64,000 nucleotides of DNA from Citricoccus muralis (GTDB lineage Bacteria > Actinomycetota > Actinomycetes > Actinomycetales > Micrococcaceae): assembly GCF_029637705.1 (NCBI RefSeq), contig NZ_CP121252.1:434001-498000 (forward strand), written 5' to 3'. Positions within the stretch are counted from its first letter, which is position 1, and each line of letters begins with the position of its first letter. Below the pieces are notes generated by a model. It did not search any database. It saw only the letters and a program-made list of their open reading frames with translations, and had not been told where the DNA came from. Positions 15,271 to 26,809 of this stretch are shown here, in pieces. The translations under genes were made by a program, and so were the position numbers.

Positions 15271-15315
15271 GTGAATTTGCTAAATAGCGCTTAGGGTGAC
15301 CTAAGCAGAATTCAC
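15271..15315. promoter_or_regulatory. nested palindrome of unknown function
   Basis: An inner perfect inverted repeat, GCTTAGG-GTGA-CCTAAGC (15289-15306), is enclosed by imperfect outer arms (GTGAATTTGCT at the left, GCAGAATTCAC at the right). The inner part recalls half of a DtxR/IdeR iron box but is 14 bp (TTAGG..CCTAA) rather than the 19-bp consensus. It could be a repressor operator or a hairpin. It lies about 135 bases upstream of the oxidoreductase start. Confidence 0.5.
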
Positions 15316-15360
15316 AGGGTTCTTTCAGGTTAACCCCTGGTGCTTGGCTTCCCGGGCCCT

Positions 15361-15462
15361 TAGGCTGTAAGTACCTCATCAAGGTGCGAGTGATGACAGG
15401 GCCCCGGCCTCGACAATATGCGTTCCCCTCACGCAGTCGAGACCGGGGCCCTATTCCTTTAA
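15361..15462 (+). repeat. TAGRST-box hairpin repeat, copy 1
   Basis: The element has TAGGCT at 15361-15366, then GTACCTCATCAAGGTGCGAG and TGATGA to 15396. A 17-bp stem follows (15398-15414 with 15436-15452, one mismatch; AGGGCCCCGG arms) closing a 21-base loop, then ATTCCTTTAA. It is the most diverged copy, but the spacing of box, conserved segment and stem is kept. It lies between two divergent genes, so it is not the terminator of a flanking gene and may be an independent short transcript. Confidence 0.75.
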
Positions 15463-15561
15463 GTTTCGGCTCGCGTCAAGGCATCTTCTCTGCCGATCGT
15501 TGTCACTGCAAATTATTGGCCGAATCAAGAGCCCTGAGTAACATGGCGACCGTTACCCGCT

Positions 15562-15577
15562 TGTGATGTGGCTCACA
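15562..15577. promoter_or_regulatory. CRP/GlxR-type operator upstream of esterase
   Basis: The sequence TGTGATGTGGCTCACA is a perfect TGTGA-N6-TCACA match to the cAMP-receptor (CRP/GlxR) consensus, extended to TTGTGA..TCACAA. It lies 52 bases before the tannase-family ATG, where a regulator could act on that promoter. No cAMP-receptor gene is in the window. Confidence 0.65.
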
Positions 15578-15629
15578 AGGCCCCTGGGCGTGGTAGCACT
15601 CGTTTGCTCCTGTAGAAGGAAGATTCGCC

Positions 15630-17630
15630 ATGCCATTCTCTGCACGCCCTCGACGCCTCCGTCGGCTCCTCGCCGCGGGCCTGACGGGCATCATTTCCGC
15701 CGCAGCTTTGTCTCCCGCCGGCGCCACCCCCACCGACAACGCTCCCACCTCCGACCTGGATTGCGCAGCTCTGGTCGAGTTCGAATTCGAGAACACCACC
15801 ATCGAAGCGGTGGAGGCGGTGGCCGCGGGCGAGCTCTCGCACCGTGGCTCCCCGGTTAATGCGCACTGTCTGGTGACCGGACGGATGAACGAGCGCGTCA
15901 GCGACGTCGACGGTGAAACCTACGCCATCGGCTTCGAGATGCGACTGCCCCACGACTGGGACGGCCGGTACTTCTACCAGGCCAACGGCGGTCTCGACGG
16001 TGCGGTCACCCCTGCACTGGGCGCCGTCGGCGGAAGCGAGAGCGCCCTGCAGCTCGGCATGGCCGTGATCAGCTCCGACGCCGGACACAGCGGCGCGCAG
16101 AATCCGACCTTCGGGCTGGATCCGCAGGCACGCCTCGACTACGGCTACCAGGCCGTCGGTACCCTGACCCCGATGGCCCGGCAGCTGATCGAAGACGCCT
16201 ACGGTGAAGCTCCCGCCTATTCGTACTTCGGCGGCGGGTCCAACGGCGGTCGACACGCCATGGTCGCCGCCTCCCGCTATGCCGAGGACTACGACGGCTT
16301 CCTCGCCATCGCCCCCGGGTTCAATCTGCCCCAAGCGGCTACCGCCCAGATCTGGGGTGCGCAACAGTGGATCACCGTGGCCACCGACGAGGCCGACCTG
16401 TCCACCGCGCTCACCACGGAAGAGCGCGAGCTGCTCGCCGGGGCTATCTTGGAACAATGTGACGACCTCGACGGGCTCGCCGACGGCATGGTCCAGGCGC
16501 AATCAGACTGCCAGGACACCTTCTCGGTCAGCGAGCACGTGCCCACCTGTGAAGCCGATCGCGACGGCACCTGCCTGACCGACGAGCAGAAGGCCGTCGT
16601 CACCACGGTCTTCGCCGGTGCCACCACCTCCACCGGTGACCCGATCTACTCTTCTTTCCCGTACGATCCGGGGCTGGCCGATGCGAACTGGGCCGACTGG
16701 AAGTTCAACGCACCGATCACCCGTGACTCCGCTGCGCTGGGCTACATCTTCTCCTCGCCGCCCTACGCCCCAGAGTTGCCCCAGCTGCGCGACTTCGTGT
16801 TCAGTGTCGATATCGATGAGGCCGATAGCTCCCTCTACGCCTCCAGCGAGGTCTACCAGGAGAGCTCCATGGAGTTCATGACGCCGCCGGATCTCACCTA
16901 CCAGGATCTGGCAGAGCAGGGCGGCAAAATGATCGTCATGCACGGCGCCTCCGACGGAGTGTTCTCCATGCAGGACACCGCTGACTGGTACGCCCAACTC
17001 GAGGGTGCTGCGGCAGAGTCGATCCGCTACTTTGAAATCCCCGGCATGGCCCATGTCCGCGGCGGACCCTCCACCGATCAGCACAACTCGCTGGCCGCCC
17101 TGATCTCCTGGGTTGAGGAAGAAAACCGTCCGGAGCAGCTGGCGGCCTGGGTCAACCCGGAGAACGCCTCGCTGCCAGCCGAGTGGTCCACCGAGCGCAG
17201 CCGCCCGCTGTGTGCTTACCCCGACGTGGCGTACTACGTTGACGGTGACGTGGAGTCTGCGGACAGCTTCGCCTGTGCAGCCGAGGCGCCGGTCGATCCG
17301 GAACCGAGCCCAACCGCGACAGCTGAGCCTAGCCCGACTGATTCAGCCGAATCGACCGACCCGACGGATTCGGCCTCGTCGGATCCCACGGACGATCCGA
17401 CGGCGACGCCGACACCGACCGAGGCCCCTTCGACGGCGCCGAGTGATCCAGGGGAGCCCTCCGCCACGGACCCCGGCGCTGATGACGTGTCCGCTTCGGA
17501 CCGCGGCGATCTGGCTGCCACCGGATCCAGCGGCGCACTGATGATGACGGCGCTCGCGGTCCTGCTGCTGGTGGTCGGTGCGGCGATCCTGATCCTGCGG
17601 AGGCGCCGCCACGGGCACCATGCCGGCTGA
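15630..17630 (+). CDS. tannase/feruloyl esterase family protein, sortase-anchored
   Basis: The 666-residue protein has an Arg-rich signal peptide (RPRRLRRLLAAGLTG...), then a tannase/feruloyl-esterase alpha/beta-hydrolase. The nucleophile region is YFGGGSNGGRHAM (Gly-x-Ser-x-Gly-Gly type). A late Asp in MHGASDGVFS and His in IPGMAHVRGGPST complete a plausible triad, with paired cysteines typical of the family. Residues about 550-630 are a Pro/Ser/Thr/Asp-rich stalk. The end has LAATG, a hydrophobic helix and an RRRR tail, matching an LAxTG sorting signal. It likely releases phenolic acids from esters at the cell surface. GAAGGAAG precedes the ATG. Confidence 0.88.
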   Translation: MPFSARPRRLRRLLAAGLTGIISAAALSPAGATPTDNAPTSDLDCAALVEFEFENTTIEAVEAVAAGELSHRGSPVNAHCLVTGRMNERVSDVDGETYAIGFEMRLPHDWDGRYFYQANGGLDGAVTPALGAVGGSESALQLGMAVISSDAGHSGAQNPTFGLDPQARLDYGYQAVGTLTPMARQLIEDAYGEAPAYSYFGGGSNGGRHAMVAASRYAEDYDGFLAIAPGFNLPQAATAQIWGAQQWITVATDEADLSTALTTEERELLAGAILEQCDDLDGLADGMVQAQSDCQDTFSVSEHVPTCEADRDGTCLTDEQKAVVTTVFAGATTSTGDPIYSSFPYDPGLADANWADWKFNAPITRDSAALGYIFSSPPYAPELPQLRDFVFSVDIDEADSSLYASSEVYQESSMEFMTPPDLTYQDLAEQGGKMIVMHGASDGVFSMQDTADWYAQLEGAAAESIRYFEIPGMAHVRGGPSTDQHNSLAALISWVEEENRPEQLAAWVNPENASLPAEWSTERSRPLCAYPDVAYYVDGDVESADSFACAAEAPVDPEPSPTATAEPSPTDSAESTDPTDSASSDPTDDPTATPTPTEAPSTAPSDPGEPSATDPGADDVSASDRGDLAATGSSGALMMTALAVLLLVVGAAILILRRRRHGHHAG

Positions 17631-17704
17631 GGCGTCCAGGGGACTCGCCAGATTTTCTGACGTCCGTCCCAGCCCTACATCAGCCTGTGCACACCTTGGT
17701 GTTT

Positions 17705-17788
17705 TTAGACTGGAGTTGCCTCTTCCAAGGTGTGAGTGAGTGAGTACTGCGGGTCGTTGATGAGAAATCATCAACGACCCGCAGTCAT
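17705..17788 (+). repeat. TAGRST-box hairpin repeat, copy 2
   Basis: TAGACT (17706-17711) is followed by GTTGCCTCTTCCAAGGTGTG and GTGAG repeats to 17744. A perfect 18-bp stem (17746-17763 with 17768-17785) closes a GAAA tetraloop. The stem sequence is unrelated to the other three copies. It lies 75 bases after the esterase stop and could terminate that gene, but it carries its own promoter-like box. Confidence 0.75.
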
Positions 17789-17821
17789 GTCTGGGCCCGT
17801 TGCTCCCCGCCGGGTGCGCAC

Positions 17822-18217
17822 CCCGAGATCGAGTTTCGTGATCAAGCGGAATATATCGGTGCTGCCGGGCTACTCAACCGCATCGTTGTTTGCTACGTCA
17901 CTGATTCAGTCCACTCCTTCGACGCCGCCGAACACCTGGCCAATCTCTGGTTAGCCGAGGGAAATGTCAGCGACCAGCTCGGAATCTTTGCGGAGTAGCT
18001 CTGGCCCACCGTGGATCGGGCGAAGACCCTATACTCATCCGAACACATTCAGGGCGTGGCGGAAGCGGCCACCGGGCTGAGTGGCGAATTTTTGGAGCAC
18101 GGCGGCGGGCACCTTAAGCTCACCCACGGGGTGTTCGTGATCGAGCGCGGGCAGGCGATCTTCCGCTACCGAAACTGCCACGTGCAGACCGGACTGCTGG
18201 CGGGTTTTGCGGCGTGA
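17822..18217 (+). pseudogene. unidentified coding remnant with internal TAG
   Basis: One frame runs from about 17822 to the stop at 18217, interrupted by a TAG at 17996-17998. The first half reads EFRDQAEYIGAAGLLNRIVV and the second half contains HGVFVIERGQAIFRYRN. Both have the residue pattern of real protein rather than random frame. The second half weakly resembles the end of a thioredoxin-fold (AhpC/TSA-like) protein and the first half a helical peroxidase-like domain, but I cannot name the family. No start codon or ribosome site is evident. Confidence 0.35.
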
Positions 18218-18320
18218 TTGTCTGCCCTGCAGACGCCCACCGTTCATCGTTCCCACGCTTCTCTCAGGAATCTCACCCTCGTTCTCCAGGTGAACCAATG
18301 GTGGTGCTCAGCATCGATCT

Positions 18321-18402
18321 TTAGAGTGGTAACTACCTCTTCAAGGTGTGAGTGATGAACAGGCAGAGCCCCGACGGTCCATAGACCTCGGGGCTCTGCT
18401 CA
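18321..18402 (+). repeat. TAGRST-box hairpin repeat, copy 3
   Basis: TAGAGT (18322-18327) is followed by ACTACCTCTTCAAGGTGTGA and GTGATGA to 18358. The stem pairs 18363-18379 with 18384-18399 (GCAGAGCCCCGA arms, one bulged base) around a CATA loop. The conserved segment is identical to copy 4 over 27 bases while the stems differ. Confidence 0.8.
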
Positions 18403-18507
18403 TGCGTGAACCCGGACGCAGGACCATACCGGACTGACGAATCGGCCATCGCCGGACATTGGCAGGCAGTGAACAGCCGAACCCAAGCCCCGTCCCAGGT
18501 TCGATTC

Positions 18508-18590
18508 TTAGAGTAGGTACTACCTCTTCAAGGTGTGAGTGATGAATAGACGGAGCCCCGGTGGTCGATCGACCACCGGGGCTCCGTTCT
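18508..18590 (+). repeat. TAGRST-box hairpin repeat, copy 4
   Basis: TAGAGT (18509-18514) is followed by ACTACCTCTTCAAGGTGTGA and GTGATGA to 18545. A perfect 17-bp stem (18550-18566 with 18571-18587) closes a GATC loop. The hairpin sits 21 bases past the stop of the leftward CoA-binding gene, so it may also terminate the metY operon from the other side. Confidence 0.8.
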
Positions 18591-26585: not shown

Positions 26586-26668
26586 CCTGGATGAATGACC
26601 AGGTTGGTGTGTGCATGGTGCGAAAGCACTGGTCAACGCCGTCGTGCAGGCACTAAGGTAGAGGATCG

Positions 26669-26764
26669 TAGACCCCGGGGTGCACCGATACTGGTGCTGA
26701 GAGTGCGGAGATGCCGCAGACCCGAATCCACCTGATCCAGTTCGTACTGGCGTAGGGAGTGGTC
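26669..26764 (+). ncRNA. TPP riboswitch (thi box)
   Basis: All core elements appear in order: GGGGTGC, GCTGAGAG, AGACCC, ACCTGATCCAG, and ACTGGCGTAGGGAG, closed by a GACC/GGTC P1 helix (26671-26674 with 26761-26764). The pyrimidine-binding TGAGA and the conserved CTGATC..GGGA thiamine-phosphate regions are intact. It lies about 45 bases before ykoF and should lower expression of the transporter operon when thiamine pyrophosphate is abundant. Confidence 0.93.
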
Positions 26765-26809
26765 CGTTAGCTCTATGTCAGAGTTCCGGTGGTCGGAAAG
26801 GTGCCCACC

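Follow-up and report, generated by a model that had tools for sequence, protein, structure and literature searches.

A Micrococcaceae-specific family of putative PhoP-activated small RNAs with a predicted target in the phnD leader of Citricoccus muralis

A 64,000-nucleotide stretch of the Citricoccus muralis genome (contig NZ_CP121252.1, positions 434,001 to 498,000; here called the window) carries four copies of an intergenic element composed of a -10 promoter box, a short conserved segment (the head) and a GC-rich hairpin. These elements belong to a family that is specific to the Micrococcaceae, bacteria of soil and skin, and is distributed there far beyond chance, and it is likely, in our judgement, that they are sibling genes for trans-acting small RNAs (sRNAs) of roughly 70-130 nt that are activated by PhoP and occlude ribosome-binding sites. 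In the proposed mechanism an OmpR-family response regulator, orthologous to Mycobacterium tuberculosis PhoP, would activate transcription, with two of its dimers sitting on four 11-bp-phased TTCNCAGC repeats in place of a -35 box. The RNA would be expected to begin at or next to the head with a 5' ACCU-loop-AGGU hairpin and to end at the GC-rich terminator-like hairpin. The head (ACCUC...AAGGUGYGAGUGAUGA) may then pair with Shine-Dalgarno regions and thereby repress translation, as may the additional C-rich loops of many members, and in the source genome the head that copies 3 and 4 share is predicted to pair with the phnDCE leader across its Shine-Dalgarno sequence.

The distribution of the family was followed with a covariance model of promoter and head built from 78 copies, a search that the sequence-only reading of the window had itself put forward as a check. 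The model matches 362 of 395 Micrococcaceae genomes and 32/32 genera, with one to nine copies per genome, and the RNA is mostly missing from one genus (g5). A head pattern allowing <=3 mismatches is present in 97/395 genomes of the family, and the reversed pattern, used as a control, gave zero matches in every genome listed. There were likewise zero matches in 273 genomes of the same order outside the Micrococcaceae, and a class-level covariance search returned only one marginal match outside the family (E 0.004), none being convincing. A scan of GTDB genomes recovered 110 stretches, all titled as Micrococcaceae except one contig; the titles include Arthrobacter, Glutamicibacter, Paeniglutamicibacter, Micrococcus, Citricoccus, Zhihengliuella, Kocuria, Yaniella, Enteractinococcus, Auritidibacter, Tersicoccus and others. 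Contig WNZI01000012.1 (L112), recorded as 'Vibrio cholerae' strain 35D, holds an Arthrobacter-type sRNA locus with Arthrobacter-like neighbours and is likely a mislabelled or contaminated record. A phage or plasmid origin was considered and rejected, no viral or plasmid copies having been found. The element was unmatched in Rfam in the window and in 16 loci, with nothing relevant at permissive thresholds, and the literature searched did not contain the exact head sequence; the family does not seem to have been described, in agreement with the earlier statement that no known family has this layout. The only Rfam match of the whole window is a thiamine pyrophosphate (TPP) riboswitch at 26666-26776.

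Within the window all four copies were confirmed by sequence, and they are the sole matches to the covariance model in the 3.13-Mb genome, copy 2 scoring 28.1 bits (E 6e-4) with model R1. The TAGRST boxes reported earlier exist, with the starts of those in copies 2-4 shifted to 17706, 18322 and 18509. The spacing between box and head is not strictly fixed (6 nt in the first two copies and 7 nt in the last two), and the conserved unit is larger than had been thought, four 11-bp-phased upstream repeats having been overlooked. These repeats can be made out in copies 1, 3 and 4, and those of copy 2 are degenerate; the position weight matrix (PWM) scores given below may be read against a 5% quantile of 20.7 for family members. 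The predicted transcripts of all four copies fold more stably than dinucleotide shuffles (z -4.6 to -7.4).

15308..15360, + strand: copy 1, predicted PhoP-box array of four 11-bp-phased TTCNCAGC-like repeats (PWM 22.0)
15361..15366, + strand: copy 1, -10 box TAGGCT (sequence, family logo)
15373..15396, + strand: copy 1, conserved head ACCTCATCAAGGTGCGAGTGATGA, predicted RNA 5' end (head pattern, covariance model)
15398..15452, + strand: copy 1, terminator-like hairpin with C-rich loop UUCCCCUCA (folding)
17653..17705, + strand: copy 2, degenerate putative PhoP-box array (PWM <6)
17706..17711, + strand: copy 2, -10 box TAGACT (sequence)
17718..17743, + strand: copy 2, diverged head GCCTCTTCCAAGGTGTGAGTGAGTGA (sequence, covariance model)
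17746..17785, + strand: copy 2, perfect 18-bp hairpin (folding)
18269..18321, + strand: copy 3, putative PhoP-box array (PWM 30.5)
18322..18327, + strand: copy 3, -10 box TAGAGT (sequence, family logo)
18335..18358, + strand: copy 3, conserved head ACCTCTTCAAGGTGTGAGTGATGA, complementary to the phnD leader (pattern, duplex)
18362..18400, + strand: copy 3, terminator-like hairpin (folding)
18456..18508, + strand: copy 4, putative PhoP-box array (PWM 43.5, close to the family maximum)
18509..18514, + strand: copy 4, -10 box TAGAGT (sequence, family logo)
18522..18545, + strand: copy 4, conserved head, same sequence as copy 3 (pattern, duplex)
18549..18588, + strand: copy 4, perfect 18-bp terminator-like hairpin, followed by TTCTTGT (folding)

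The anatomy of the family was derived from a logo for which 140 non-redundant copies were aligned by their -10 boxes. TANNNT is present in 99% of these, which upholds the interpretation of TAGRST as an actinobacterial -10 element. Upstream lie four 11-bp-phased repeats of consensus nTTCNCAGC, with CAG at -46, -35, -24 and -13 relative to the start of the -10 box, so that the last repeat is found about 10 bp upstream of TANNNT, at the usual place of a -35 box. Downstream, 6-8 nt separate the -10 box from the nearly invariant 24-nt head ACCTCWTNAAGGTGYGAGTGATGA, of which GGTGYGAGTGAT is the least variable part, and a variable terminator-like hairpin follows. This arrangement agrees with the suggestion of a tiny transcript closed by such a hairpin, transcription itself being predicted. 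The head begins with the ACCU-loop-AGGU hairpin, the mini-hairpin of the earlier reading, which is retained; its stem hardly varies, and the alignment therefore neither proves nor disproves its pairing. On the 3' side of the head there are one or two hairpins of free sequence (median z -5.1 over the next 80 nt). It had been proposed that the stems differ among copies yet stay paired, and this is borne out in the Arthrobacter-type subclass, where compensatory changes are seen in 11/12 terminal-stem pairs with 98.5% of cells paired, a degree of covariation matched by 0/500 shuffles.

C-rich loops such as UUCCCCCAA occur in 67/142 copies where 15 would be expected. In a paralogous subclass with the head ACCTTCTCAAGGTGCGAGTGATCA (loci L044, L050, L052, L057, L064, L076, L108, L111 and L119) the loop is UUUCACCUCCUU or CGCCUCCUUGU, close to the 16S anti-Shine-Dalgarno sequence, the generally known 16S tail serving for comparison. 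At five Citricoccus/Micrococcus-type loci (L033, L036, L043, L092 and L102) the 15-mer AGGTGCGAGTGATGA is tandemly duplicated within the head, a pattern suggestive of a functional unit. A conserved small peptide starting at the AUG with which the head ends was rejected, lengths and sequences being unrelated among copies.

Direct repeats with an 11-bp period are the binding sites of OmpR-family regulators. In M. tuberculosis, PhoP binds to TCACAGC-N4-TCACAGC, and its affinity is higher for tri- and tetrameric sites (PMC4832192). The sRNA arrays (nTTCNCAGC, 11-bp period) conform to the TCACAGC motif and 4-bp spacer of this site. The source genome (G000) has nine PF00486 matches, one of which (G000:C1:853786-854490), the PhoP orthologue, matches the M. 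tuberculosis protein at 1e-84; the recognition helices of the two are almost the same (SIVESYISYLRRKID compared with NVVESYVSYLRRKID). An orthologue was found in 54/54 genomes tested, at 73-100% identity. Further evidence for a role of PhoP comes from its own promoter, as the best three-repeat array lies 47-90 bp upstream of the matched phoP start in 28/30 loci, where other periods give 3-10 loci and chance would give about 0.5; the same test was negative at pstS (0/26 loci) and at other response-regulator genes (0/28 loci). The sRNA and phoP promoters thus share one binding motif, as would be expected if PhoP both autoregulates and drives the sRNAs, and on these motifs the sRNAs are probably PhoP dependent. 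The pstS promoters examined (L230, L237 and L242) carry GTTCACC repeats in the same layout of repeat array and TANNNT, a separate PHO-box regulon. Among other candidate regulators, the phosphate regulator RegX3 was rejected as the pstS boxes differ from the array, and an L176-type regulator, suspected from its helix, was rejected when partial matches (~53-61%) were also found in some RNA-less genomes. A strict triple-repeat genome pattern was abandoned as a site finder, the sites being too degenerate.

A candidate target emerged when 14 genomes were searched for 12-nt stretches complementary to the head. The match in the source genome is in the leader of phnD, which encodes a 317-aa substrate-binding protein of the phosphate-phosphite-phosphonate family (PF12974); downstream of it an ATP-binding gene and a permease gene complete a phnDCE phosphonate-transport operon. 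The leader reads CAUCACUCACACC-UGAAACUCA-CCUUGAAGAGGU-CUUACCG-AUG (start codon G000:C1:1097955), and every base but the last of the head shared by copies 3 and 4 finds its complement in the two outer blocks of the leader (~23-25 bp), the second of which contains the likely Shine-Dalgarno sequence GAGGU. The duplex is predicted at -36.9 kcal/mol, compared with -30.3 kcal/mol for the best other non-sRNA window among 83,066 (mean -13.8, standard deviation 2.9 kcal/mol). When intramolecular structure is included, copies 3 and 4 retain a net cofold gain of -15 to -16 kcal/mol and copies 1 and 2 one of -10 to -11 kcal/mol. No PhoP array is present on the strand opposite the leader (PWM <=-20.8, against +20.7 for the 5% quantile of real copies), so the site is not another sRNA gene. 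Together with the C-rich and anti-Shine-Dalgarno loops this complementarity upholds the possible anti-Shine-Dalgarno function suggested at the outset. None of the other exact 12-nt complements in the 14 genomes both lies in a start-codon context and forms a duplex near -37 kcal/mol with the genome's own head variant, and a distant phnD on an Arthrobacter plasmid was rejected as a second target, having no complementarity. A complement to the copy 1 head at G000:C1:2709728 (L299; -36.4 kcal/mol) lies inside a transposase-like frame and is probably due to chance, but is odd.

Several points weigh against the model of PhoP-activated trans-acting sRNAs. Transcription, PhoP dependence and repression are all inferred from sequence, no study of Micrococcaceae sRNAs was found in the literature search, and a clean U-tract is missing from several of the terminator-like hairpins. 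Two residues of the recognition helix differ from those of M. tuberculosis PhoP (N212S, V213I), the array of copy 2 is weak, and PhoP is present in the genus that mostly lacks the RNA, so that its presence alone gives no link. As for the target, the net cofold gain is modest, the site was found in one genome only and might descend from an sRNA copy, and the phnD transcription start is uncertain because a GTTCACC box overlaps the leader.

The genomic surroundings bear on the question of whether the elements act in trans or in cis. In the loci analysed the next downstream gene is co-directional in 72 cases and convergent or opposite in 78, and the neighbours vary by genus (proC, trkA/trkH with topoisomerase; purA; sulfate permease; aldo/keto reductase). 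A terminator-like hairpin immediately after a promoter could be taken for a leader or attenuator controlling the gene downstream, and in the window a co-directional gene does begin ~170 nt downstream of copy 1; with downstream orientation at 72:78, however, the elements do not behave as cis leaders, and as copies 3 and 4 face a convergent gene, tandem copies occur and neighbours change between genera, this explanation is largely refuted and we regard it as highly improbable. Still harder to credit is a mobile repeat (resembling repetitive extragenic palindromic, REP, sequences or miniature inverted-repeat transposable elements, MITEs) or a plain terminator repeat with no sRNA function. The elements are indeed multicopy, intergenic, palindromic and clustered, but conservation resides in promoter and head rather than in the palindrome, stems differ among copies of one genome, copy number stays at 1-9, viral and plasmid copies were not found and 32 genera conserve the element.

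Other explanations accept the sRNA family and differ as to its activator or its mode of action. It is rather improbable that another OmpR-family regulator (RegX3, MtrA or the L176 type) is responsible: these too bind 11-bp direct repeats, MtrA and RegX3 occur across the actinobacteria and the Corynebacterium glutamicum PhoR site reads TTCACAGG on the opposite strand, but the pstS promoters of the same genomes have a different box (GTTCACC), the MtrA motif is GTAAC-like and the array stands upstream of phoP and not of the other regulator genes (28/30 and 0/28). The head might alternatively be a decoy that binds protein or ribosomes (a sponge) and not an antisense sequence. It is almost invariant while the remainder varies, it resembles a Shine-Dalgarno sequence plus start region, and the tandem duplication of AGGTGCGAGTGATGA in some Citricoccus/Micrococcus copies recalls the binding sites of sponge RNAs; however, the C-rich and anti-Shine-Dalgarno loops and the bipartite phnD complementarity favour pairing and no protein partner is known, so that a decoy appears unlikely. 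Trans-acting siblings are consistent with the one to nine copies per genome and their common four-repeat array and -10 box, to which regulator binding is predicted.

Between copies 1 and 2 (15630-17630) the window encodes a large secreted protein whose C-terminus bears a sortase signal of the LAETG/LAVTG type. In the interval that separates copies 2 and 3 (17800-18235) there is no plus-strand open reading frame of at least 80 aa despite a coding-like appearance, possibly reflecting a decayed gene.

Several known systems share individual features with the family. 6C RNA (RF01066) is an actinobacterial sRNA that also has C-rich hairpin loops; it differs in that the elements described here have no Rfam match, their invariant part is the 5' head and their C-rich loops are optional. 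The PHO boxes of C. glutamicum PhoR and Streptomyces PhoP drive phosphate-starvation protein genes (PMC3353115, PMC4415409). They likewise consist of 11-bp-phased direct repeats, the other strand of the PhoR site being TTCACAGG, but they serve protein genes, and pstS in the genomes studied here has its separate GTTCACC box. In Listeria the five sRNA copies LhrC1-5 are under the control of the LisRK two-component system and repress translation of a target (PMC4132741). Multiple copies are a point of likeness, as would be the predicted control by a single two-component system and the proposed translational repression, without a claim of homology; Listeria is a Firmicute and LhrC binds Hfq, and the comparison is one of description, not of sequence. 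A parallel in regulation is Mcr7 of M. tuberculosis, a PhoP-dependent non-coding RNA proposed to occlude the tatC ribosome-binding site (PMC4038636). Again homology is not claimed: Mcr7 is ~350 nt long, has a single locus and is confined to the M. tuberculosis complex, whereas the present family is multicopy, with members of a predicted 70-130 nt, a PhoP-type array, a fixed 24-nt head and variable hairpins, and is thus set apart by size, copy number and layout.

To our knowledge Mcr7 of the M. tuberculosis complex is the one known example of a PhoP-to-sRNA circuit. If the interpretation given here is true, such a circuit would reach a whole family of environmental bacteria, in a phylum in which few trans-acting sRNAs have been characterised. 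Because almost every Micrococcaceae genome contains the family, among them those of Arthrobacter, Glutamicibacter and Micrococcus, which are easy to grow, its regulator, its targets and its mechanism could all be tested directly in harmless strains, and sequences are supplied for a new Rfam family. A broader proposal, possible rather than probable in our view, is that PhoP is the switch of a modular RNA regulon in which a fixed antisense head is combined with exchangeable anti-Shine-Dalgarno loops in one to nine siblings, through which translation, including that of phosphonate uptake, may be reprogrammed under PhoP-sensed stress.

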